Shown: piece by piece, positions 7,918-56,966 of the stretch
How positions within the stretch are numbered: the stretch's first letter is position 1
How the letters are laid out: each line of letters opens with the position of its first letter
Assembly (NCBI GenBank): GCA_012839895.1
Contig: DUML01000083.1
Coordinates: 1-58,186 of the forward strand
Reading direction: 5' to 3'
Origin: Peptococcaceae bacterium
GTDB taxonomy: Bacteria; Bacillota; Desulfitobacteriia; Desulfitobacteriales; Syntrophobotulaceae
Length of the DNA stretch: 58,186 bases
Program-made: the position numbers and the translations under genes
The notes under the pieces: model-generated
Told to the model about the DNA's origin: nothing
Seen by the model: only the letters and a program-made list of their open reading frames with translations
The model's database searches: none

Positions 7918-8847
7918 TTGGGAAAAATTTATGAGAATTTAACCGAGTTAATCGGCGGTACCCCTTTAGTTAAATTAACTAAAATAACGCAAGGCTTAAA
8001 AGCAGAAGTTGTAGCCAAAGTCGAGTACTTTAATCCCGGTGGAAGTATTAAAGACCGGATTAGTTTCAACATGATTAAGGACGCTGAGGAAAAAGGGTTA
8101 ATCAACAAGGATACGGTTATTATTGAGCCTACCAGCGGCAATACCGGCATAGGGTTGGCTTTCGTTGCTGCAGCCCGGGGGTACAGACTAATTTTGACTA
8201 TGCCGGAAACTATGAGCATGGAAAGGCGCAACCTTCTAAAAGCTTACGGGGCGGAATTAGTGTTAACTCCCGGGAGTGAGGGAATGACGGGAGCTATTAA
8301 GAAGGCTTTGGAAATCGCCAAAGAAATCCCGAATTCTTTTATTCCCCAACAGTTTGAAAACCCAGCCAATCCGGAAATCCACCGCAAAACCACCGCTGAA
8401 GAGATTTGGGCGGATACCGACGGTAAAATTGACATCCTGGTTGGCGGAGTTGGCACGGGAGGTACGATTACCGGGGTTGGCGAAGTGATTAAAGCTCGTA
8501 AGCCGGAATTAAAAGTTGTTGCTGTTGAGCCGAGCGATTCTCCGGTTATTTCCGGTGGTAAGCCAGGTCCACATAAGATTCAGGGAATAGGAGCAGGCTT
8601 TATCCCTAAGGTCCTGAATACTGCAATACTAGACGAAGTTTTCCCAGTTACTAATGAGCAAGCCCTAGAGACAGGACGCAGGCTGGCCAGGGAAGAAGGA
8701 ATGCTCGTAGGCATTTCCTCCGGTGCCGCTGCCTTTGCCGCGCTGGAAGTAGCCAAACGGCCGGAAAATGCAGGCAAACTTATTGTTGTGATCCTTCCCG
8801 ACACCGGGGAAAGATATTTAAGTACCGCTTTATTTCAGGAAAACTAA
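7918..8847 (+). CDS. cysK: Cysteine synthase (O-acetylserine sulfhydrylase)
   Basis: A 309-residue PLP enzyme that makes cysteine from O-acetylserine and sulfide. The PLP lysine is in [15 protein letters not shown] near residue 44; the phosphate or substrate loop is [13 protein letters not shown] near residue 65; [15 protein letters not shown] is the cofactor-phosphate loop near residue 178; the chain ends with [14 protein letters not shown], as in CysK. The start is TTG 7918 with an excellent AAGGAGGA site. It follows the CymR/IscR-like regulator. In Bacillus and Staphylococcus CysK itself binds CymR as corepressor, so the pairing may reflect the same control circuit. Length is normal. Confidence 0.93.
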
Positions 8848-9105
8848 CCAATCTGATAGTATTTAATAAAAGCGGATACTTTAGCAGGATGATTAAGCAG
8901 CTGGCGGCCGGAAACTATATAACAATAATATTTGAAGAAAGAACAAAATGTTTAAGAATAATAAATGACTTAAATACGTAATTTTAATTATTGAAAAATA
9001 CAGAATATTATTACTTTTATCTATTTGGGAAATTATTGTTATGGTTAAAAAAATATCTGGTAGAATTAAGGAGGGAACAACTATTCAAAATTGGAGGTAA
9101 ACGTT

Positions 9106-9324
9106 ATGACCATGCAAAAAAAGGTTCTAACAGTGGAAGGGATGTCCTGTAATCATTGCGCAACACGTATTCAAAACTCAATTGGTTCTATCCATGGTGT
9201 TGCGAAGGTAGACGTGGACTTAAAAGGGAAAACGGTTAGTCTTGAGTATGAAAACGAAGAGGTTACTTTGGAGGAGATTATTGAAGCAATTGATGACCAG
9301 GGTTACGAGGTTAAGAAAGACTGA
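9106..9324 (+). CDS. Heavy-metal-associated domain protein (CopZ-like chaperone)
   Basis: A 72-residue single HMA domain with the metal-binding motif GMSCNHC near residues 12-18 and the beta-alpha-beta-beta-alpha-beta pattern ending GYEVKKD. Such proteins carry Cu(I) to P-type ATPases or regulators. No copper ATPase is visible nearby, so the partner is unknown. The start is ATG 9106, seven bases after GGAGGT; an in-frame TTG at 9091 lies inside the untranslated leader and is unlikely. It lies 38 bases before tcdA and may share its transcript. Confidence 0.85.
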   Translation: MTMQKKVLTVEGMSCNHCATRIQNSIGSIHGVAKVDVDLKGKTVSLEYENEEVTLEEIIEAIDDQGYEVKKD

Positions 9325-9362
9325 TTGGCAGGGAAATATCAATTTGAGAAGGATGAGGACAA

Positions 9363-10118
9363 GTGCAGCATAAGTTTTCGCGGACAGAGCTGTTGATCGG
9401 TTCAGAAGGATTGGCTAGACTTAACAAAAGCAAAGTGTTTATTTTTGGCCTTGGCGGTGTCGGGTCTTTTACGGCTGAAGCTTTAGCCCGAGCAGGTATT
9501 GGCAGCTTTAAGCTGATTGACTTTGACGAGATTTGCCTTACTAATATTAACCGTCAGCTTCATGCTCTGCACTCCACGATTGGGAAGCCCAAAGTGGAAG
9601 TAATGAAAGCTAGGCTCCTTGATATAAATCCTCAAGCTCAAATTGAAATTTATAAATCCTTTTATTCGGAGGAGAATACTGATTATTTTTTTGCTGGTGA
9701 GAAGCCGGATTATGTAGTTGATGCCATTGATACAGTTAAAAGTAAAGTCAGCTTGGCCAAAGAATGCTACCGGAGAGGAATTCCTTTCATTTCTTGTATG
9801 GGAGCGGGAAACCGTTTAAATGCTTTAAGTTTTAGGGTTGCGGATATATCCAAGACCAGCGGTTGTCCTTTAGCCAAAGCGGTTAGAAAACTTCTTAAGC
9901 AAGAAGGTATTACTCAAGGATTTAAGGTGGTTTATTCTCCTGAGCCTCCTCTTAAACCTTTGAAGCAATATCCAGACTGTGCTACAAATTGTGTTTGTCC
10001 AAGCGGGGATGCTCACTGTTCTAAAAAACGTCAGATACCCGGCAGTATTTCCTTTGTTCCCTCTGTCGCCGGTTTGCTGATGGCCGGAGAAGTAGTGAGA
10101 GATCTTTTAAACTTATAA
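9363..10118 (+). CDS. tcdA: tRNA threonylcarbamoyladenosine dehydratase (TcdA-like)
   Basis: A 251-residue E1-like ThiF/HesA-family enzyme. VFIFGLGGVGSFTAEALARAG near residue 25 is the ATP-binding loop, DFDEICLTNINRQLHAL near residue 50 is the adenylation motif, and CMGAGNR near residue 140 together with a Cys-rich DCATNCVCPSGDAHC near residue 205 fit the TcdA/CsdL group. TcdA cyclises threonylcarbamoyl-adenosine at tRNA position 37 using ATP. The start is GTG 9363. It directly follows the HMA protein. Alternative ThiF-family roles are less likely because no ThiS- or MoaD-like partner is nearby. Confidence 0.85.
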   Translation: MQHKFSRTELLIGSEGLARLNKSKVFIFGLGGVGSFTAEALARAGIGSFKLIDFDEICLTNINRQLHALHSTIGKPKVEVMKARLLDINPQAQIEIYKSFYSEENTDYFFAGEKPDYVVDAIDTVKSKVSLAKECYRRGIPFISCMGAGNRLNALSFRVADISKTSGCPLAKAVRKLLKQEGITQGFKVVYSPEPPLKPLKQYPDCATNCVCPSGDAHCSKKRQIPGSISFVPSVAGLLMAGEVVRDLLNL

Positions 10119-10200
10119 GACAGGTAGAGTTTGAAGCATAAGCTATTACAAGTAATTATTTATTATTTTTTAATGTTTAAATTTACTTTTATAATTAATA

Positions 10201-10234
10201 TTTAGTTGTATAATAAAATTTAGTTGTATAATAA
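10201..10234 (+). repeat. Tandem direct repeat after tcdA
   Basis: The 16-base sequence TTTAGTTGTATAATAA occurs twice (10201-10216 and 10219-10234) with an 18-base period. Its right copy runs into the left arm of the adjacent hairpin. Confidence 0.7.
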
Positions 10235-10265
10235 GATGTGGATTGCTAAGATGCCACATCTTATT
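10230..10265. repeat. 12-bp perfect hairpin between tcdA and the MFS gene
   Basis: AATAAGATGTGG at 10230-10241 pairs perfectly with CCACATCTTATT at 10254-10265 around a 12-base loop. It probably ends the tcdA transcript, although no clear T-run follows it, so it could instead be a processing or regulatory hairpin. Confidence 0.6.
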
Positions 10266-10375
10266 TACTTCAGAATCAACTAAATATTTTACCCTTATTC
10301 GAATTGTTTTGTAATTGTAATTTTCAGCTTTAAAGCTTATAACAAATTAGTAAGTAAAGGACAAGGAGAAGCAAT

Positions 10376-11587
10376 ATGGTCAAAGCAATTTTAGCCAAAG
10401 TTAAAGGCATGGAACGGGACTATTTATTATTTATTTTTGTCGGGATCTTTTTGGGTATTGGGCAAAGTGTTGACGGGGCAACAATAAACAACTTCCTTAA
10501 AGACAGGTTTGATTTTTTAATTATGCAGAGGACTCTGCTGGAAATTCCCAGAGAGATGCCCGGGCTTCTGGTTTTTATATTTACGGCTTTTTTATTTGCC
10601 TTGGGGGATATCAGGATTGGAGTCGTAGCTAATCTAGCAGCAGCAAGCGGCATGTTTTTGCTGGGGATAATCCCTTACAACTTTTTTCTAATGTTATTAG
10701 TTGTCTTTATTTACAGCACAGGTCAACATCTCTTTATGCCTTTGTTTAACACAATTGGGATGTCTTTTGCTAAAGGGGGACAGTACGGCCGAAAGCTTGG
10801 CCAAATCAGTGCGGCCAATACTGCTTCCTTGGTGATAAGCAGCGCTCTGCTCTGGCTCTTATTCCGCTATTTTCACATCAGCTACACAGTTTCTTTTACC
10901 ATAGGCGCCTTAGCTTTTTTAGCTGCGGCTATCCTTTTGATGAAAATGAATCCCGGACGTACTGAGCCTATGAAGAACCGCTTTGTTTTCCGGAAAGAAT
11001 ATAAGCTTTATTATTGGTTGTGTATAGTTTACGGGGCGAGGAAACAAATCTTTTTGACTTTTGCTCCTTGGGTTCTTGTTGATGTTTTTGCCCAAAAAGT
11101 CACTACCCTTACCATGTTATTTTTTATAATCTCTACGCTGGGAATTTTTGTGAAACCTTTAATCGGTTTATTAATCGACCGGTTGGGGGAAAAAGTAATT
11201 CTCGCCGGAGAGTCGGCTATTTTGATTCTGGTTTGCTTGCTTTACGCTTATGCCGCGGATTTGTTCGGCAGTTGGGCTGTAGTGATTGTTTGTGCTTGCT
11301 ACGTTTTGGATCAGACTCTCAATGCCGTTGGTATGGCCAGGGCTACTTATGTCAAGAAAATAGCGGTCAAAGCCGAGGATGTCTCGCCGACCCTTTCTCT
11401 GGGTTTAAGCATAGACCATGTTATTTCCATGTTCCTTCCGGTAGTTGGGGGCTTGGTTTGGTATTCGGCCGGAGCCGGCGGCTATAAATATGTCTTTTTA
11501 GGGGGAGCGCTTGTGGCCCTTATTAATTTTATTTCCTGCTTATTTATACGAGTTAAACCTTTACAGGCTGAAGGACAGCAGGCATAA
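10376..11587 (+). CDS. Major facilitator superfamily transporter
   Basis: A 403-residue integral membrane protein with about 12 predicted spans in two halves joined by a basic loop near residues 190-205 (MNPGRTEPMKNRF). The N-terminal half has IFLGIGQSVDGATINNFLKDR, and the loop LIDRLGEKV near residue 265 corresponds to the conserved G-x-x-x-D-R-x-G-R-R-type MFS signature. The substrate cannot be inferred. ATG 10376 has AAGGAGA upstream. It stands alone; the GIY-YIG gene begins 80 bases later in the same direction. Confidence 0.8.
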   Translation: MVKAILAKVKGMERDYLLFIFVGIFLGIGQSVDGATINNFLKDRFDFLIMQRTLLEIPREMPGLLVFIFTAFLFALGDIRIGVVANLAAASGMFLLGIIPYNFFLMLLVVFIYSTGQHLFMPLFNTIGMSFAKGGQYGRKLGQISAANTASLVISSALLWLLFRYFHISYTVSFTIGALAFLAAAILLMKMNPGRTEPMKNRFVFRKEYKLYYWLCIVYGARKQIFLTFAPWVLVDVFAQKVTTLTMLFFIISTLGIFVKPLIGLLIDRLGEKVILAGESAILILVCLLYAYAADLFGSWAVVIVCACYVLDQTLNAVGMARATYVKKIAVKAEDVSPTLSLGLSIDHVISMFLPVVGGLVWYSAGAGGYKYVFLGGALVALINFISCLFIRVKPLQAEGQQA

Positions 11588-49585: not shown

Positions 49586-50680
49586 ATGGCAATTTATTTA
49601 AATTGTCAAAAAGGCAATAAACAGCAATTATTTGTTACTTTTCGCTACAGTGAAGAAAGAGTGAAAACAATTAAGAGTATCAATGGCCGGGCTTGGAATG
49701 CCGAAAAAAGATGCTGGGTTATTCCTTATACTAATGAAGCAATAAATGATTTATTAAAAGCTTTTTCTAAGGAGAGAGTAGTTATTGATCCTTCTATTGG
49801 GATCACAGAATTAAATAAAAATCTGAGCCGCGAATTATCTATGCCTAAGTTGCTCCTGTCTATGGAAGAAGAATTGATTCTTAAAGGGTATAGCCACAAG
49901 ACAAAAAAAGCCTATCTGGGTCATGCCCGGAGGTTTTTAGAAGTAATTGATAAAGAGTATAGCTTAATTACCATCGAAGATATAAGACAGTACATTGTAA
50001 CACTACTTGATTACAAGAAAAAATCACACGCTTATGTCAGCCAGGCTTTAAGTTCTATAAAATTCTTATTCAATAATGTTTTGCGAATAAAGAGCCTGGA
50101 TTTGGATTTGCCTCGGCCGAAAAAAGAGCATAAACTTCCCTCTGTCCTAAGCCAGGGTGAAGTGATCAGGATTTTCGAATCGGTATGTAATATTAAGCAT
50201 AAGGCCATCCTTGTTCTGACTTATTCCGCAGGCCTGAGGGTTAGTGAAGTAGTAAGCCTGACTATAGACGATATTGATCAAGAGCGCAAACTAATCCGGA
50301 TTAAACAAGGTAAAGGGAAAAAGGATCGGTATTCCTTGTTATCTGCTAAAGCCTTACAAGTATTAAAAGAATATGTAGTATCTTATAAGCCGCATAAATG
50401 GTTATTTTCCGGAGATAAACCTGATGAACATATATCGGAACGGTCAGTTCAAACTATTTTTAAGAAGGCGATCCTTAAGGCTCAAATTAAGAAAGACGTA
50501 TCTGTGCATTCTCTAAGGCATTCTTTTGCTACTCATCTCCTGGAAGCGGGTACCGACTTAAGATATATTCAAGAACTGTTGGGGCATAAGAATTCCAAAA
50601 CAACTGAAATATATACGCATGTAAGCAATAAGGACCTAGCAAAAATCCGCAGCCCGCTGGATATAATATGGAATGGATAA
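49586..50680 (+). CDS. Tyrosine recombinase heading the cassette array
   Basis: A 364-residue tyrosine recombinase. Residues ~1-85 are an extra N-terminal module (LFVTFRYSEERVKTIKSING, RCWVIPY); a SAM-like core-binding domain spans ~88-170; the catalytic domain holds Arg218 (SAGLRVSE), Lys243/245 (GKGKKDR), His308 and Arg311 (HSLRH), His334 (LLGHKNS) and Tyr343 (EIYTHVS), all present. It ends IRSPLD, like many IntI proteins, but only 63 residues separate Lys245 from His308, so I see no IntI-specific extra segment. ATG 49586 follows AAGGAG. It reads toward the attC array and is the prime candidate for moving its cassettes. Confidence 0.85.
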   Translation: MAIYLNCQKGNKQQLFVTFRYSEERVKTIKSINGRAWNAEKRCWVIPYTNEAINDLLKAFSKERVVIDPSIGITELNKNLSRELSMPKLLLSMEEELILKGYSHKTKKAYLGHARRFLEVIDKEYSLITIEDIRQYIVTLLDYKKKSHAYVSQALSSIKFLFNNVLRIKSLDLDLPRPKKEHKLPSVLSQGEVIRIFESVCNIKHKAILVLTYSAGLRVSEVVSLTIDDIDQERKLIRIKQGKGKKDRYSLLSAKALQVLKEYVVSYKPHKWLFSGDKPDEHISERSVQTIFKKAILKAQIKKDVSVHSLRHSFATHLLEAGTDLRYIQELLGHKNSKTTEIYTHVSNKDLAKIRSPLDIIWNG

Positions 50681-51086
50681 TACTTTTCTGTAGGAAGCTT
50701 TTTTGCATTTGCAGGGAATTATTGAGGTATTTTTTATTGGACGGTTTACATTTGCGCGTTACCCACGGGGGGATAACATAATAATTTGCTTCGAAATTAG
50801 TTAGCAAAGTTTATTAAAAAGAATTATCACAGCAGGATTAGATAACACAATATTGATTGTTTATATAGGTGGTATTTCCGCAATACTTCGCAAATCCCTC
50901 TTAATATAGATTTAACCCGCAACTTTTTTGCGGTAAAAAGACGTTATACGACATATCGTGCATTGGCCGCGCCTCCATGCGCGGGTTTTCTTGGGTAGGT
51001 TTATTCTTATTTCTTCATATTTGATTATTAGCTTTTTTTACATTATTGTTTGGTGGAAAAACCAAATAACCTAGATGGAGGATTTG
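50681..51086. other. Non-coding region between the recombinase and the first cassette gene
   Basis: 406 bases. It contains the first recombination core GTTATAC at 50943 with a small CCGC/GCGG hairpin before it. After the core comes a CCGCGC/GCGCGG hairpin near 50967-50984 and an AT-rich leader to the first cassette gene. No convincing cassette promoter could be fixed. Confidence 0.5.
50911..50949 (+). other. attI-like site (first core of the cassette array)
   Basis: TTTAAC at 50911-50916, a small CCGC/GCGG hairpin, and GTTATAC at 50943-50949. The core is preceded by AC as at every other core in the array, and the bases after it are the start of cassette 1: 50943-50958 matches the complement of 51418-51433 at 15 of 16 positions. 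Hence 50943/50944 is the first integration point. Whether this is a true attI or a worn attC is open. Confidence 0.6.
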
Positions 51087-51323
51087 ATGGATACTGTTAA
51101 GGGGTTAATTAACTTTCTCAATAAGCTAGAAGAAAAGAGTATTTATTATAGTCTTAATAAGACTAGAGACGAGAGCTTAATGATAGAAGTTAGAGTACCT
51201 GGACAACGATGGGAAATAGAATTTTTGGAAGATGGAACAGTTGATATTGAAAAGTTTATTAGTGATGGGAAAATGTACGATAGTAATGAATTAGATGTTC
51301 TATTTACGGAATTTGCAGATTAA
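51087..51323 (+). CDS. Cassette 1: small acidic protein, unknown
   Basis: 78 residues from ATG 51087, five bases after GGAGG; an ATG four codons upstream overlaps that site. It begins MDTVKGLINFLNKLEEKSIY and has a central VRVPGQRWEIEFLEDGTVDI segment, giving an alpha then beta pattern and a very acidic tail. Short proteins of this general layout are frequent in genomes and cassettes but have no assigned function; I do not name a family. It is the only gene of a ~550-base cassette (50944-51496) and is followed by a GC-rich hairpin and attC-1. Confidence 0.7.
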   Translation: MDTVKGLINFLNKLEEKSIYYSLNKTRDESLMIEVRVPGQRWEIEFLEDGTVDIEKFISDGKMYDSNELDVLFTEFAD

Positions 51324-51379
51324 GAGATTTAGTTTGGATAAGTCACCGAGTGCTCCCCTTTGTGTAGGGCGTTGTTTAA

Positions 51380-51403
51380 GGCAGCGCCGTCCGTGGCGCT
51401 GTC
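51380..51403 (+). terminator. Hairpin with GTCCGT loop in cassette 1
   Basis: CAGCGCC and GGCGCTG pair around the loop GTCCGT, between the cassette 1 stop codon and attC-1. The same loop recurs in cassette 2. No T-run follows, so the terminator label is tentative. Confidence 0.5.
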
Positions 51404-51426
51404 TGAGTTACGGGGCACGATACGTC

Positions 51427-51502
51427 GTATAACAGCGAATTGCCAAAACTTTGCCAATATGAATGCGGTAATGGCGCTGCGGCAATTCGCAGGACGTTAT
51501 CT
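51427..51502 (+). other. attC-1 recombination site
   Basis: GTATAAC at 51427-51433 and GTTATCT at 51496-51502 bound a 76-base site. Inner arms GCGAATTGCC and GGCAATTCGC are a perfect 10-bp match around a loop containing ACTTTGCCAATATGAATG. The end GTATAAC is the complement of GTTATAC, which begins cassette 1. Confidence 0.88.
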
Positions 51503-51583
51503 GAAACCAAACGCACGGCCGCGACATCGTGTCACGGATAATATTGAAAGAGCTTCGAAGTATTGTTTTTGGAGATGATCTTG

Positions 51584-52312
51584 ATGGAACAAAATAGTCT
51601 TAACCAGTACATAAGATATATAGAATTAGATAGAGATAATGTGCCATCCTTTTCAGAATATCCATTTAACTTACCAGCGGTGAAAAATTTAGGTAGATTA
51701 TCGTTTCATCCAAAAGTTACATTCATTGTTGGAGAGAATGGTTCCGGAAAATCGACAATCCTAGAATCAATAGCTGTTGCATTTGGATTTAACGCTGAAG
51801 GGGGAACAAAGAATTTTACTTTCTCTTCAAGAGCTACACATTCAGAGTTAAACCAACACATAAAAATTGTTAAAGGCGCCAAGAAGCCTAGAGACGGTTT
51901 TTTCTTCAGAGCAGAGAGCTTTTATAATTTTGCTACAAACGTTGAGGAACTGAAGTTAAATGACGCTTATGGTGGTAGATCATTACACGAGCAATCACAT
52001 GGAGAATCGTTTTTTGCTGTATTTCAAAATCGGTTTAGCCGTGATAGTATCTATATTTTAGATGAGCCGGAAGCAGCCTTATCACCTTCCAGACAAATGT
52101 CTCTAATTACTAGAATGCATGACTTGATCAAGGAAGGATCTCAGTTTATTATTGCAACACATTCGCCAATAATCATGGCATATCCTGATGCCGTAATATA
52201 TCAAATTAATGAAGGATTCGAACAGGTAAGATATGAAGATACAGAGCATTACCAAATTACACGTTCTTTTATAAATAGTAGACAAAAGATGCTTGATATA
52301 TTGATGGAATGA
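51584..52312 (+). CDS. Cassette 2: COG3910-type AAA ATPase
   Basis: 242 residues from ATG 51584, nine bases after GGAG. An SMC/ABC-like ATPase: VTFIVGENGSGKSTILESIA is the Walker A loop near residue 50, RSLHEQSHGESFFAVF near residue 140 is the signature-type loop, YILDEPEAALSPSRQMSLI is Walker B, and FIIATHSPIIMAYPDA carries the switch His. It matches predicted ATPases of the COG3910 group, stand-alone and of unknown role, sometimes found among mobile or defence genes. It is the sole gene of a ~950-base cassette. Confidence 0.8.
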   Translation: MEQNSLNQYIRYIELDRDNVPSFSEYPFNLPAVKNLGRLSFHPKVTFIVGENGSGKSTILESIAVAFGFNAEGGTKNFTFSSRATHSELNQHIKIVKGAKKPRDGFFFRAESFYNFATNVEELKLNDAYGGRSLHEQSHGESFFAVFQNRFSRDSIYILDEPEAALSPSRQMSLITRMHDLIKEGSQFIIATHSPIIMAYPDAVIYQINEGFEQVRYEDTEHYQITRSFINSRQKMLDILME

Positions 52313-52330
52313 TTTGGAGGGTATTTAAGG

Positions 52331-52350
52331 GTCGGCCGTCCGTGGCCGAC
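52331..52350 (+). terminator. Hairpin with GTCCGT loop in cassette 2
   Basis: GTCGGCC at 52331-52337 and GGCCGAC at 52344-52350 pair perfectly around GTCCGT, 18 bases after the gene. Like its counterpart in cassette 1 it lacks a T-run. Confidence 0.55.
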
Positions 52351-52375
52351 TCGGCTTCGCGGGGCGTTCGGCATC

Positions 52376-52452
52376 AGATAACAGTGAATTCCCAAAATCT
52401 GAGAAAATATGCAGGTAATAACCAGACTTCGGGAATTCACGGGACGTTAGCT
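52376..52452 (+). other. attC-2 recombination site
   Basis: AGATAAC at 52376-52382 and GTTAGCT at 52446-52452; inner arms GTGAATTCCC and GGGAATTCAC match perfectly over 10 bp. TCAGATAAC at its left end is the complement of GTTATCTGA at the start of cassette 2. Confidence 0.88.
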
Positions 52453-52484
52453 GAAATCACGTGTAAGAGAGGAAAGGATAAAAG

Positions 52485-53234
52485 ATGATTGAGTTCTTTT
52501 TAAAGCTGTGGTATTTTTGGCTACTAATTATACTTATGTTCATTTATGGTCTATACAAAGCAAAGATTAAAGGTTTTCTTGGCGAAAAAACTATTGCTGT
52601 TATCCTTACTAGGTTAGATTCTTCAAAGTATAGGGTTATTAATGATTTGATGTTGAATATAGACGGAAGGACATCACAGATAGACCATGTTATTGTTTCA
52701 AATTACGGGATATTTGTTATTGAGACAAAGAATTATAAGGGTTGGATAATTGGCGATGAATATAGTGAGTACTGGACTCAAGTAATATATAAGCGAAAGG
52801 AAAAGTTATATAATCCGATCAGGCAGAATTATGGTCACATCCAGGCTTTGAAGAAGAATCTACAAGAATATCAAGAAATAAACTTTATCCCCATAATAGT
52901 CTTTTCTGTGGATTGTGATTTGAAGGTTAAAACTAATGCAGATGTTATTTATTCAGTAAAGTTACTAAAAACAATAAAAAAATATAATATTGAAACGATC
53001 ACTAATGATCAGAAAGAAGCTATTTTTTCAAGGTTGGTTTCATTAAACATAAAAGAGAAAGAATTAAGAAGTCAGCATATAGACGGAATTAAGAAAATCA
53101 AAACGGATAAAACAAATCAAACTGAATCTGATATCTGCCCTAAATGTGGTGGGCAATTAATCTTAAGAAAAGGAAAGTATGGGGAATTTAAAGGATGCAG
53201 TAATTTTCCTAAATGTAAATATATCTTGAAATAA
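52485..53234 (+). CDS. Cassette 3: membrane-anchored NERD protein with zinc ribbon
   Basis: 249 residues. One N-terminal helix (residues ~5-25); a NERD (nuclease-related) domain at ~33-145 with [35 protein letters not shown] (Asp and E-x-K of the nuclease core) and [10 protein letters not shown]; a basic linker; and a C-terminal topoisomerase-type zinc finger [20 protein letters not shown] with the second Cys pair in CSNFPKC. NERD proteins are predicted nucleases, often near DNA-processing or defence genes. ATG 52485 follows GAGAGGAAAGG. It fills cassette 3, which ends in attC-3 only 10 bases after the stop. Confidence 0.85.
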
Positions 53235-53243
53235 GGTGACTTC

Positions 53244-53317
53244 AGCTAACACGGGAGTCCCGCAACTTTGTCAATATGAATGTAGTATGATGCTGCGGGA
53301 CTCCCTGAACGTTAGTG
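53244..53317 (+). other. attC-3 recombination site, interrupted by the intron
   Basis: AGCTAAC at 53244-53250 and GTTA at 53311-53314, where the group II intron begins (the next bases GTG belong to the intron). Inner arms GGGAGTCCCGC and GCGGGACTCCC match over 11 bp. The left end CTTCAGCTAAC is the complement of the cassette 3 start GTTAGCTGAAATC except for one base. Confidence 0.85.
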
Positions 53318-55042
53318 CGCCAAGCAAAGCTTGGTACTTCTTGCAAGGTGAAAGTCCTTGCTGGGTAAGGTCTAGCCAACCACCCATATCGAGTGTTGCT
53401 CCGAAACTGGCAACAGCAAGGCGAAGCGTACACAGAGAATTATATAGGCCATAAGGAGGACCGTAACTCCTGAAGCATATTCAGCCCCGTAAGTGTGGTA
53501 CCGGAAACGGACAAGAGCAGACGGCGACATGCTTAACGTCATGGAAGCTAACACTGAAGAATCGACGAATGGCAAGATTCCAGAAGGTCTGTCGGGGTCA
53601 GAGAACGTGGCATGTATAAAGAGAAGTATCAGGAACTTGGGAGGCTCCTGTTGCTCCTGCCAGAAAGCAGGTAGGCTAATCCAATCGAAAAAGAGGACAG
53701 CCAATGCACACAGGAATTCGGATTAACCCATAGTACTCTGAGGACGGGAGAGCCGGCTACACGGGGAAGGGGTTAACAGGCATATGCAGCCCGCAAAGGA
53801 AACATTGTCCGGACTGCAGGACTGGAGGAAACAATGCAAACCTCACTGCGGGGAATAGCAACAAAAGCAAAACAAGACAAAAAGCACAGATTCGGAAACC
53901 TCTACGGACTCATTAACCGTCAGGCATTGTATCAAGCATGGGCTGATATCAACAAAAAAGCAGCCGCCGGTGTGGATAAAGAGACGGCCAAAGAATTTAC
54001 CAAAAACCTTGACCACAACCTAAACGAACTGCTGACAACCCTAAAAGAAAAGAAATACAAAGCCAAGTTGGTCAGAAGAGTCCACATACCAAAAGGGGAT
54101 GGCAAAACCAGACCGCTAGGGATCCCGGCAGTCAAAGACAAAGTACTGCAACGAGCGGCAGCTCGGATATTGGAAGCCATCTACGAACAGGACTTTCAAA
54201 AATGCAGCTATGGTTACAGACCGGGAACAGGCCCGCAAAAAGCCGTACAGGAACTCACCAAAGAAATTCAGGGAAAATACAGCTACATTGTAGAAGCTGA
54301 CATCAAAGGTTTTTTTGACAACATCGACCACGGGTGGCTGATGGAAATGCTCAAACAAAGAATCAAAGATACAGCATTTCTGAGACTCATCAACAAATGG
54401 CTCAAAGCAGGGATACTGGAAACAGACGGAAAAGTAATCCATCCCATAACCGGATGTCCGCAAGGTGCAATCATAAGCCCGGTACTGGCCAACATCTATT
54501 TGCACTACACACTGGATATATGGTTCGAGAAAATTGTAAAACCAAGATGCCAGGCAGAAGCTTACCTCTGCCGTTTCGCTGATGATTTTATCTGCGCCTT
54601 CAGGTATAAACGGGACGCTGAACGATTTTACAAAGCGCTGGCCGGACGGCTCAACAAGTTTGGGTTGGAGATGGCTAAGGAAAAAACCAAAATCATCAGT
54701 TTCTCCCGGTTTAGGAAGCATGAAAACACCAGCTTTGAATTCTTGGGATTCGAATACCGGTGGAAAGTATCCCACAAAGGGAAAGACATCATTGCCAGAA
54801 GAACAAGCCGGAACAAACTCAGAAAATCAATAAAAGCATTTACAGCGTGGTGCAAAGAGAACCGGAACAACCGGCTGAGGAAGATCGTAGGCATGTTAAA
54901 TACTAAGCTAAGAGGATACTTTAACTATTATGGCGTAATAGGAAACAGCAAAGGAATCACTGAGTTCTATAATATCGCACTGAAAATCAGGCATTCGTAT
55001 CACCGCCATCCAGCGGACTTTGCACCGCAGCAATCCGCTTAA
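53315..55042 (+). mobile_element. Group II intron inserted in attC-3, 3' end missing
   Basis: It begins GTGCGCC at 53315, a standard group II 5' end, followed by a ~520-base structured region (AAGGTGAAAGTCCTTG near 53345, GGGAGAGCCGGCTACACGGG near 53742) and the reverse transcriptase gene. TAACGT at 53534-53539, 219 bases in and about where EBS1 lies in such introns, is complementary to the 5' exon end ACGTTA (53309-53314). No domain V or VI was found after the reverse transcriptase; intron-like sequence stops near 54986 where the opposite-strand recombinase begins. It is therefore probably immobile now. Confidence 0.85.
53834..55042 (+). CDS. ltrA: Group II intron reverse transcriptase/maturase, C-terminus altered
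   Basis: 402 residues. RT motifs: IPKGDGKTRPLGIPAVKDKV, YGYRPGTGPQKAV, VEADIKGFFDNID (first catalytic Asp), PQGAIISPVLANIYLHYTLD and RFADDFICAF (FADD, residues ~248-251, in place of YADD). The maturase X domain RNKLRKSIKAFTAWCKENRN and LNTKLRGYFNYYGVIGNSKG follows. After ITEFYNIALKI the sequence becomes unrelated (RHSYHRHPADFAPQQSA) because it reads through the end of the opposite-strand recombinase gene; the usual WLNRRSQ-type ending is lost. The endonuclease domain is absent, as in several bacterial classes. Confidence 0.9.
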   Translation: MQTSLRGIATKAKQDKKHRFGNLYGLINRQALYQAWADINKKAAAGVDKETAKEFTKNLDHNLNELLTTLKEKKYKAKLVRRVHIPKGDGKTRPLGIPAVKDKVLQRAAARILEAIYEQDFQKCSYGYRPGTGPQKAVQELTKEIQGKYSYIVEADIKGFFDNIDHGWLMEMLKQRIKDTAFLRLINKWLKAGILETDGKVIHPITGCPQGAIISPVLANIYLHYTLDIWFEKIVKPRCQAEAYLCRFADDFICAFRYKRDAERFYKALAGRLNKFGLEMAKEKTKIISFSRFRKHENTSFEFLGFEYRWKVSHKGKDIIARRTSRNKLRKSIKAFTAWCKENRNNRLRKIVGMLNTKLRGYFNYYGVIGNSKGITEFYNIALKIRHSYHRHPADFAPQQSA

Positions 55043-55847
55043 CCGAAAGATGGAGATAAAGCACCGTCGTAGAAATATCGCTGTGCCCTAAGAGAACTTG
55101 AATCGTGCGCAAATCGGTACCCCTATCCAGTAAATGAGTCGCAAAACTATGGCGCAGAGAATGCACCGTAGCCGGTTTCAAAATTCCGGCCTTAGCCTTG
55201 GCTTCCTGAAAAATTTGCTGGATATGCCTGGCCGAAAGCGGTTTACCTTTGATATATCCGGGGAAAAGAAAATCATCAGGGCGGAAAAGTTTCCAGTATT
55301 CCCGCAAAACCCGGAGATTTTCTTGAGAAAGAATAGAAAAACGGTCTTTGCCTCCTTTCCCTTGAACAACCCTGATCAGCATTTGCTTGGAATCAATATC
55401 CGAGACCCTAAGGTTAAGCGTTTCACTAATACGAAGCCCGGAAGAATAAGTGGTCAGAAGAATCGCCTTATGCTTCAGATAGCCGACTTGATCAATAATC
55501 GCTAGAATCTCCTGTCTGGAAAGAACACAGGGAAACTTCTTTAAGCGTTTGGGGCGTACAATGACATCATCTGACCAATTACACTGAAGAACCTTATTAA
55601 AAAAGAGCTTGAAAGCGTTGCAGGAAATATTGATATTGCTGTAACTGATCCCGGACTTAACGCGGTAATGGAGATATTCTTTGAGCTCATCCGCAGAGAT
55701 CAAAGGAGCCGGTTTAGCATAATGTTTCTCCAAAAGCCTCAAGTGGGTCAGGTAATGCCGCATCGTTTGAGGAGAGAACCCGCGAAGTTCCATTTCCGAT
55801 TTCATTTGCAGAAAATGCTCAGATAGGGTATAACGGTTTTGAGTCAT
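54987..55847 (-). CDS. Second tyrosine recombinase, opposite strand
   Basis: 286 residues: a core-binding domain (~10-90) and a catalytic domain with Arg139 (SSGLRIS), Lys164 (GKGGKDR), His229 and Arg232 (HSLRH), His255 (LLGHSDIS) and Tyr264 (VLYLHLS). It lacks the N-terminal module of the recombinase at 49586 and ends VQSPLD plus a short tail. It resembles stand-alone integrases that travel with IS91-like elements, but no transposase is visible. Its last ~55 bases overlap the reverse transcriptase frame, so it marks the junction that truncated the intron. ATG 55847 lies in one arm of an inverted repeat. Confidence 0.85.
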   Translation of the reverse strand: MTQNRYTLSEHFLQMKSEMELRGFSPQTMRHYLTHLRLLEKHYAKPAPLISADELKEYLHYRVKSGISYSNINISCNAFKLFFNKVLQCNWSDDVIVRPKRLKKFPCVLSRQEILAIIDQVGYLKHKAILLTTYSSGLRISETLNLRVSDIDSKQMLIRVVQGKGGKDRFSILSQENLRVLREYWKLFRPDDFLFPGYIKGKPLSARHIQQIFQEAKAKAGILKPATVHSLRHSFATHLLDRGTDLRTIQVLLGHSDISTTVLYLHLSVKRIAAVQSPLDGGDTNA

Positions 55848-55955: not shown

Positions 55956-56030
55956 GTACAACACGGCATTCACGAAACTTGCAAAGATGAATGTGGTTAT
56001 GACGCTTCGTGAATGCTCAGAACGTTAGGC
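55956..56030 (+). other. attC-4 recombination site
   Basis: GTACAAC at 55956-55962 and GTTAGGC at 56024-56030; inner arms GCATTCACGAA and TTCGTGAATGC match perfectly over 11 bp, with a central GATGAATGTGGTTATGACG loop like those of the other sites. Its left end predicts a cassette beginning GTTGTAC, which is not in the window, so the front of cassette 4 is missing. Confidence 0.87.
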
Positions 56031-56204: not shown

Positions 56205-56966
56205 ATGCCATATTTTAAATATAACGATAAGTCATGTTACTTCGAAGAACACGGAAAAGGTATGCCTTTGCTTTTTTTACATGGAAATACTGCTTCATCC
56301 AAAATGTTCTCTGATTTGGTAGCGCCATTTGTTGAGGATTATAAAGTTGTTCTTATAGATTTTGTTGGGCATGGTAAATCAGATAGAGTTGAACATTTTT
56401 CAACAGATTTATAGTTTGATGAAGCATTACAAGTAATAGCATTCTTAGAACAAGTACAGTATAAAAAAGTATATTTAATTGGTAGTAGCGGAGGAGCATT
56501 GGTAGCTATCAATGTAGCATTAGAACGTCCTGATTTAGTGTGTAAAGTAATCGCTGATAGCTTTGAAGGCGAAGTACCTCTGCAAGAGTTTGTTCAAAGT
56601 GTAGAAGAAGTACGAGAAACTTCAAAACAAGACAAGTATGTTAGGAGTTTTTATTATTTAATGCATGGTGACGATTGGGAAAGCGTTGTTGATAATGATA
56701 CATTTGCTATTCGAGAACATGCAAAGACAATAGGTAGATTCTTTCATAAGGCATTAAACGAACTGCAGACAGAAATATCATTTACAGGCAGCAAAGAAGA
56801 CGAATTTATCAAATTTGTTGATCCGGATTTTTATTTAAAAACCTTCTCGAAGCTCATTGAAAAAGTGGGTAATGGAAAAATGCACATTTTTGAACAAGGA
56901 GGACATCCTGCGTTACTGTCTAATAAAGATGAATTTGTTAAACTAACAAAAGATTTCTTTAAGTAG
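56205..56966 (+). pseudogene. Cassette 5: alpha/beta hydrolase gene with in-frame amber codon
   Basis: A 253-codon frame interrupted only by TAG at 56412-56414. The fold is clear: PLLFLHGNTASSKMF (oxyanion loop), LIDFVGHGKSDR, the nucleophile elbow IGSSGGALVAINVA with Ser, and a C-terminal EQGGHPALLS with the catalytic His. The stop falls between DL and FDEA, where relatives usually have a Trp, so a TGG-to-TAG change is the simplest cause. ATG 56205 follows ATGGAGG. It begins 180 bases after the attC-4 core and so heads the next cassette; no attC for this cassette is seen before the window ends. Confidence 0.78.

Follow-up and report, generated by a model that had tools for sequence, protein, structure and literature searches.

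A candidate chromosomal integron with an insert-less, HARP-type integrase in a Peptococcaceae bacterium

Does a tyrosine recombinase without the segment that is specific to integron integrases (IntI) serve the attC array that lies beside it? The question is raised by the window analyzed here, a stretch of 58,186 nt (contig DUML01000083.1, positions 1 to 58,186) from the genome of a Peptococcaceae bacterium (GCA_012839895.1). The sequence-only reading of this locus had left two possibilities, a distinct recombinase class that acts on attC or an orphan attC cluster beside an unrelated recombinase. According to PMC7790495, the I2 insert is necessary for cassette capture (citing Messier and Roy 2001) and is unique to IntI, with no known forms that would bridge Xer-like enzymes and IntI. 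In addition, PMC9024848 describes only a single complete integron and scattered CALIN (orphan attC clusters) in Firmicutes. From the sequence comparisons presented below, we consider it very probable that the window holds a chromosomal integron of an insert-less class, in which a HARP-type tyrosine recombinase would capture and rearrange circular cassettes. The features are listed in table 1.

Table 1. Positions of the recombinase genes, the attI-like site, the cassettes, the attC sites, and the intron in the window
Feature	Position	Strand	Basis or remark
N-terminal HARP-like module of integrase	49586-49840	+	Residues 1-85; Pfam HARP, AlphaFold model, conserved W/F
Insert-less integrase gene	49586-50680	+	364 aa; core-binding and catalytic domain at residues 89-360
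attI-like region	50878-50933	+	Pair of palindromes ahead of the first core, as in many relatives
attI core GTTATAC, start of cassette 1	50943-50949	+	Complement of attC1 R''
Cassette 1	50943-51496	+	82-aa ORF 51075-51323; complementary ends
attC1	51427-51502	+	attC model R1, E 3.6e-14; fold analysis
Cassette 2	51496-52446	+	AAA ATPase ORF 51563-52312; complementary ends
attC2	52376-52452	+	Bottom-strand fold z -4.6; R1, E 2.6e-15
Cassette 3	52446-53313	+	NERD nuclease-like and zinc ribbon ORF 52485-53234; complementary ends
attC3	53244-53317	+	Fold z -5.2; R' core interrupted by group II intron
Group II intron	53312-55042	cassette strand	RF02005, 117 bits; RT 53834-55042
Second insert-less recombinase	54987-55847	-	286 aa, 43% identity; overlaps intron RT
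attC4	55956-56030	+	Last recognizable site; attC detector

A domain search found Phage_integrase and SAM-like core-binding domains in the product of the integrase gene. All catalytic residues are in place (R218, K246, H308, R311, H334, and Y343), as had been read from the sequence, and this set is kept in 89 of 90 relatives. The C-terminus, KIRSPLDIIWNG, also agrees with the IntI-like RSPLD ending described earlier. Measured over the alignment, the distance from Lys246 to His308 is 62 residues, close to the earlier count of about 63 from Lys245. This spacing is 61-66 in 90 relatives with the N-terminal module, 58-66 in 26 relatives without it, and 62-74 in four Xer proteins, whereas it is exactly 103 in 31 of 31 canonical IntI. 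Furthermore, the best PDB sequence match of the window enzyme was Vibrio cholerae VchIntI 2a3v (phmmer, 4e-40), and this alignment splits (query 266/281 vs. chain 183/240); therefore, the IntI-specific segment is missing from the window enzyme. With the NCBIfam model integrase_gron (TIGR02249), the score was 213.7 bits, below the cut-off of 265, and profile positions 178-234 were unmatched. The suspected absence of the IntI-specific segment is thus borne out by the spacing, the split alignment, and the unmatched profile positions, and the IntI additional domain near patch III and the I2 helix was not found in the enzyme. The top model was NCBIfam NF040815 (219.3 bits, narrowly short of its cut-off of 220), and the scores for XerD (189.7 vs. 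cut-off 329.6 bits) and XerC (189.6 vs. 335.15) lay under both cut-offs. In a Foldseek search with the whole AlphaFold model, integron integrase chains (2a3v) were the best PDB matches, with XerA behind.

The extra N-terminal module of about 85 residues, which had also been noticed from the sequence, was confirmed and is HARP-like. Pfam HARP (PF07443) was the top match in five of five family members (E 0.0003-0.014), with scores of 15.4-20.6 bits that were under the Pfam gathering cut-off of 25 bits in all five. In the AlphaFold model (pLDDT 83.9), residues 1-85 are arranged as b-b-a-b-b-a-b, and they carry the motif F/Y-x3-I-x2-IK-x-I-x-GR-x-W-x4-K-x-W-x-IP. Among 31 diverse family sequences, W37 is invariant, and W44 and F60 are near-invariant. 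HARP domains are present in SMARCAL1, a eukaryotic annealing helicase, and by analogy a role of the module at junctions or hairpins is plausible.

The phylogenetic tree was built with the insert and N-terminal columns removed and with four Xer sequences. The insert-less enzymes and IntI formed one group against Xer (100/100). IntI formed its own clade (100/99), and the window enzyme was outside it. Hence none of the checks proposed earlier, namely the profile search, the alignment with IntI and Xer, and the tree, placed the enzyme in canonical IntI. In a quick tree, canonical IntI was nested inside the insert-less family (SH-aLRT 93-97), and the nearest sequences were two Undinarchaeales enzymes; in the bootstrap tree, the insert-less enzymes formed one clade in 22% of bootstraps. 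Since the nesting lacks bootstrap backing, descent of IntI from within the insert-less family is not claimed. The contig from the Undinarchaeales MAG (L131) has two tandem insert-less integrases at 8490-11071 and ends 34 nt past the second match.

Downstream of the integrase gene, four attC sites were found, all on the plus strand like the gene itself, and the co-orientation of recombinase and cassettes reported earlier therefore holds. The shuffled whole 58-kb window would give 0.6 attC-like matches, compared with the four found. The cores at 50943 and 51496 proved to be real as well: three cassettes are uninterrupted, and the two ends of each are complementary to one another over roughly 15-19 nt, for instance GTTATACGACATATCGTGC at 50943 with GCACGATACGTCGTATAAC at 51415. 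The window thus contains two hallmarks of integrons, attC sites in the form of imperfect palindromic hairpins with R''/R' cores, and cassettes with complementary 5' and 3' cores. The attC detector found no site beyond attC4 in the window. Past attC4, at 56205-56966, there is a cassette-like unit with an alpha/beta-hydrolase-like reading frame that is split in two. Because of this broken frame and the lack of further attC sites, the end of the array looks decayed. Canonical intI genes had been said to point usually away from the cassettes; this is right for class 1, but the reverse orientation is not unique to this locus, and reverse-orientation IntI has been noted in Spirochaetota (PMC9668308).

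The attI-like region consists of an imperfect inverted repeat, CCGCAATACTTCGC (50878-50891), and a palindrome, CCGCAACTTTTTTGCGG (50917-50933). Over a 13-nt window, the attI core agrees with the complement of attC1 R'' at 12 of 13 positions, which was reached by 0 of 50 shuffled cores. Paired palindromes about 45 bp apart (CCGCAAC..GCGG, then CGACA..TGTCG or CGAAC..GTTCG) are found in many relatives, and in many of them a core of the type GTTANNYRAAA comes after the palindromes. The first core lies at a median of 113 nt past the stop among relatives and at 262 nt in the window. Of 85 loci, 49 had the core motif in the 350 nt that follow the gene. The opposite strand gave 5 and shuffled sequence 9.5, and in the upstream flank the motif was seen in 4 of 67 loci. 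It is rare after canonical intI genes (4/31), as expected, because the canonical attI sits on the other side of the gene. In the closest relative (L030, 64%), the contig ends exactly at ...AAGACGTTA, as assemblies do at repeats. Judged from comparison of genomes, namely from the conserved palindromes and core and from the cassette copies at this site in a complete genome (see below), an attI adjoins the integrase gene in the manner of integrons, and new cassettes would enter there. Some attI palindromes downstream of the integrase gene have the form CGAAC-N3-4-GTTCG (L089, L106, L087, and L114). These resemble the LexA/DinR box of Gram-positive bacteria, and the likeness may reflect SOS control or convergence. 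Matches to sigma-70 promoters were at chance level only.

The same arrangement recurs across genomes. Across 23 loci of the order, 52 attC-like sites were downstream on the same strand and 4 downstream on the opposite strand, and none was upstream on either strand; the corresponding numbers for 94 loci of other taxa were 45, 8, 2, and 1. This first detector needs an uninterrupted stem and therefore overlooks sites with long loops as well as the canonical attC of class 1. A stem-independent test was added for this reason, in which the sequence beyond the first core past the gene was examined for an R'' complementary to that core. Of 46 loci, 31 reached at least 11 complementary positions out of 13 (control mean, 8.7), and the passing loci include Paenibacillus, Nitrospirota, Nitrospinota, Altarchaeum, Micrarchaeota, and Bacteroidota. 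The family as a whole spans Bacillota, Bacteroidota, Nitrospirota, and some archaea, in a sample that covers taxa unevenly and in which many loci come from draft contigs broken off at the array. An attC covariance model matched 57 of the 74 genomes of the order. The median number of attC per genome was 13.5 with a recombinase match vs. 3 without (P = 3.8e-5), where the matched set includes a few genomes that have only a shorter IS91-type relative. In a few relatives, no attC was detectable downstream, and several array-side recombinases are broken (those of L038 and L065 are frameshifted); both observations weigh against our main reading. A full-length relative is present in Chryseobacterium (L213, 11968-13011; complete plasmid NZ_CP041688.1); behind it come small genes, most of them in one orientation with it, and at least one attC-like site. 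In a phage collection, no full-length close relative was found among the matches listed.

These distributions bear on the orphan-cluster explanation, in which a canonical IntI, since lost or encoded elsewhere, put the cassettes in place and the recombinase is an unrelated neighbor. The IntegronFinder scheme would class a cluster without a recognized IntI as a CALIN, and few CALIN and one complete integron have been found in Firmicutes (PMC9024848). A complete genome of the order (G002) has about 20 attC sites, with neither an insert-less nor a canonical integrase detected, and could be a true CALIN or contain an undetected integrase pseudogene. This genome also speaks against our main reading, as attC can persist, or be otherwise supplied, in genomes without a detected recombinase, and so does the published view that cassette capture requires the insert (PMC7790495). 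However, the profile search found canonical IntI in 0 of the 74 genomes of the order. This absence is meaningful because the same profile search found IntI in 84 of 296 Pseudomonadota-side genomes and in 4 of 21 genomes that hold insert-less enzymes. Moreover, the order of gene, attI, and array is common to many phyla, and exact cassette copies are found at attI in a genome without IntI. We thus regard an orphan cluster as very unlikely. On the sequence evidence, the recombinase is not a chance neighbor of the array, since the gene, the attI-like site, and co-oriented attC recur together.

The genome with the cassette copies (G006) is complete and has an array with 14 detected attC. Each of its two attI-proximal cassettes is an exact copy of one further along the array, over 664 nt in one case and 673 nt in the other; the cores of the inner cassettes lie at 10409-11065 and 8243-8906 (L032 reverse-complement coordinates). 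The identity begins and ends at ACGTTA cores on both sides. Such copies are expected if whole cassettes move and insert at attI. In addition, when consecutive sites are paired, R' and R'' complement each other perfectly in 37 of 56 cases, and the maximum in 2000 within-array shuffles was 27. Most simply, recombination at the cores would bring cassettes in at attI, although this genome has no canonical integrase.

What the recombinase would recognize can be judged from the attC sites. In 53 sites of the order, 10 of the 14 predicted stem pairs have two-sided compensatory changes, and almost none is broken. Such changes point to recognition of structure, that is, of a folded strand, although the arms can also be homogenized in other ways. 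In class 1 attC sites, single-base bulges are read by the I2 helix of IntI. Such bulges were seen in 1 of 53 attC stems in the order and in 5 of 26 first sites in other phyla, a comparison with only two canonical attC sites on the canonical side. The near absence in the order would suit an enzyme that has no I2, but with the mixed picture in other phyla the lack of extrahelical bases was dropped as a class-wide feature of attC. A Xer-type double-strand recombinase, which would recombine the attI and attC cores as duplex inverted sites and not as folded single strands, is in keeping with the near absence of I2-read bulges in the order, with the missing I2 insert, and with scores close to those for the XerA, XerC, and XerD models. 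However, the stem sequence varies with pairing kept, and duplex recognition would not need pairing; the bottom strand of attC1 folds slightly better than the top; and the tree sets the family apart from Xer. On balance, recombination of duplex sites seems rather unlikely.

The array in the window is interrupted by a group II intron, which begins directly after the attC3 hairpin, within the R' core. The core downstream of the intron no longer complements attC4, as expected because the cassette is interrupted. No Rfam match to the 3' domains D5-D6 of the intron was found. It could be argued that the second recombinase, of IS91 type, is the actor on the array, given that it is also an insert-less relative and that it occurs near attC in L039 and L063. 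Against this, its clade accompanies an IS91-type transposase (Y2_Tnp and Zn_Tnp_IS91; for instance, L063 2610-3797) and has no attI-like element downstream, and in the window the transposase is absent and the gene faces the wrong way. We therefore consider action of this enzyme on the array highly improbable. A single element made up of the second recombinase and the group II intron was also considered, and it was rejected because no intron RT lies close to the near relatives of this recombinase.

Taken together, the first of the two earlier possibilities, a distinct recombinase class that acts on attC, is favored over the orphan cluster, because the gene, the attI-like site, and the co-oriented array recur across the order and across phyla, the number of attC tracks the recombinase in an order without canonical IntI, and the G006 copies lie at attI. 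That the enzyme itself cuts these sites is what we infer. We read the family as a second, insert-less integrase class, presumably catalytically active. In the proposed mechanism, the enzyme would bind attI just 3' of its own gene, at the two palindromic boxes and the GTTANNYRAAA-type core, and would bind the folded, probably single-stranded attC hairpin of a cassette. Strand exchange would take place at G^TT, so that each new cassette would take the first position of the array and point the same way as the integrase gene. The HARP-like module may bind the attI boxes or the hairpin, and the insert-less enzyme would be the catalyst of cassette movement.

More tentatively, and leaning slightly against rather than for it, we suggest that the HARP-type insert-less integrases could be a separate, phylum-spanning class and possibly the older form, from which IntI would have come about through loss of the HARP-like module and acquisition of I2. 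In this scenario, the HARP-like module would take over hairpin handling, so that capture would need no I2. If this is true, part of the Bacillota CALIN, and also the tet(X) genes linked to "xerD", would belong to the insert-less class.

Since the arrangement is found in many bacterial phyla and in some archaea, an entire branch of integrons has apparently gone unnoticed. A widespread insert-less family on attI-attC platforms makes the view that I2 is necessary testable and supplies candidate intermediates. In addition, the class is a suggested source of the cassette arrays of Bacillota and Bacteroidota, two phyla for which integrons are described as very rare (PMC9024848). For surveillance, the insert-less recombinase could also provide a marker that should escape searches based on IntI, and the capture of tet(X)-type genes by insert-less platforms is raised as a possibility.

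This possibility comes from genes annotated as "xerD" beside tet(X), catB, and aadS in Bacteroidota and Acinetobacter (PMC7473080 and PMC11194056), which are not called integron integrases in these papers. In Acinetobacter towneri pGX7 (L214, 12052-12645; NZ_CP071772.1), the 5'-truncated recombinase lies directly upstream of tet(X3) and is co-oriented with it, and it is 52.6% identical to the window enzyme over residues 149-361. tet(X) may once have been the first-position cassette of an insert-less platform. At tet(X3), the detector found no attC and the core/R'' match looked weak by eye, and tet(X3) is thus at most a putative cassette.

Among known systems, canonical IntI (TIGR02249; VchIntI 2a3v, IntI1, and IntI2) is closest. 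Both share the recombinase branch, the SPLD-type C-terminus, attI, attC, and cassettes, and G^TT cores, and canonical IntI gives the best structural and PDB sequence matches. However, the window enzyme has no IntI additional domain and has an N-terminal HARP-like module, its gene points toward the cassettes, and its attI lies at the 3' end of the gene with paired palindromes. In the passages of PMC8138268 on "Integron-like" simple tyrosine recombinases, the insertion is called essential for integron function, and insert-less members are not tied to attI or attC arrays. The public relatives carry the name of the best model, NF040815 (site-specific tyrosine recombinase/integron integrase), but this generic name merges XerA-like proteins and is silent on any array. 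CALIN is the call that integron-finding software would be expected to make for the window array, yet a related recombinase and an attI-like site adjoin it, so that it does not have the absence of a nearby integrase that defines a CALIN. No description of insert-less integrases of the HARP type that have an attI and attC arrays of their own was found in the literature searched, which left most subscription papers and all preprints outside. We file the locus as a variant of the integron, which probably works like one, with an integrase that fails the test by which IntI is defined.
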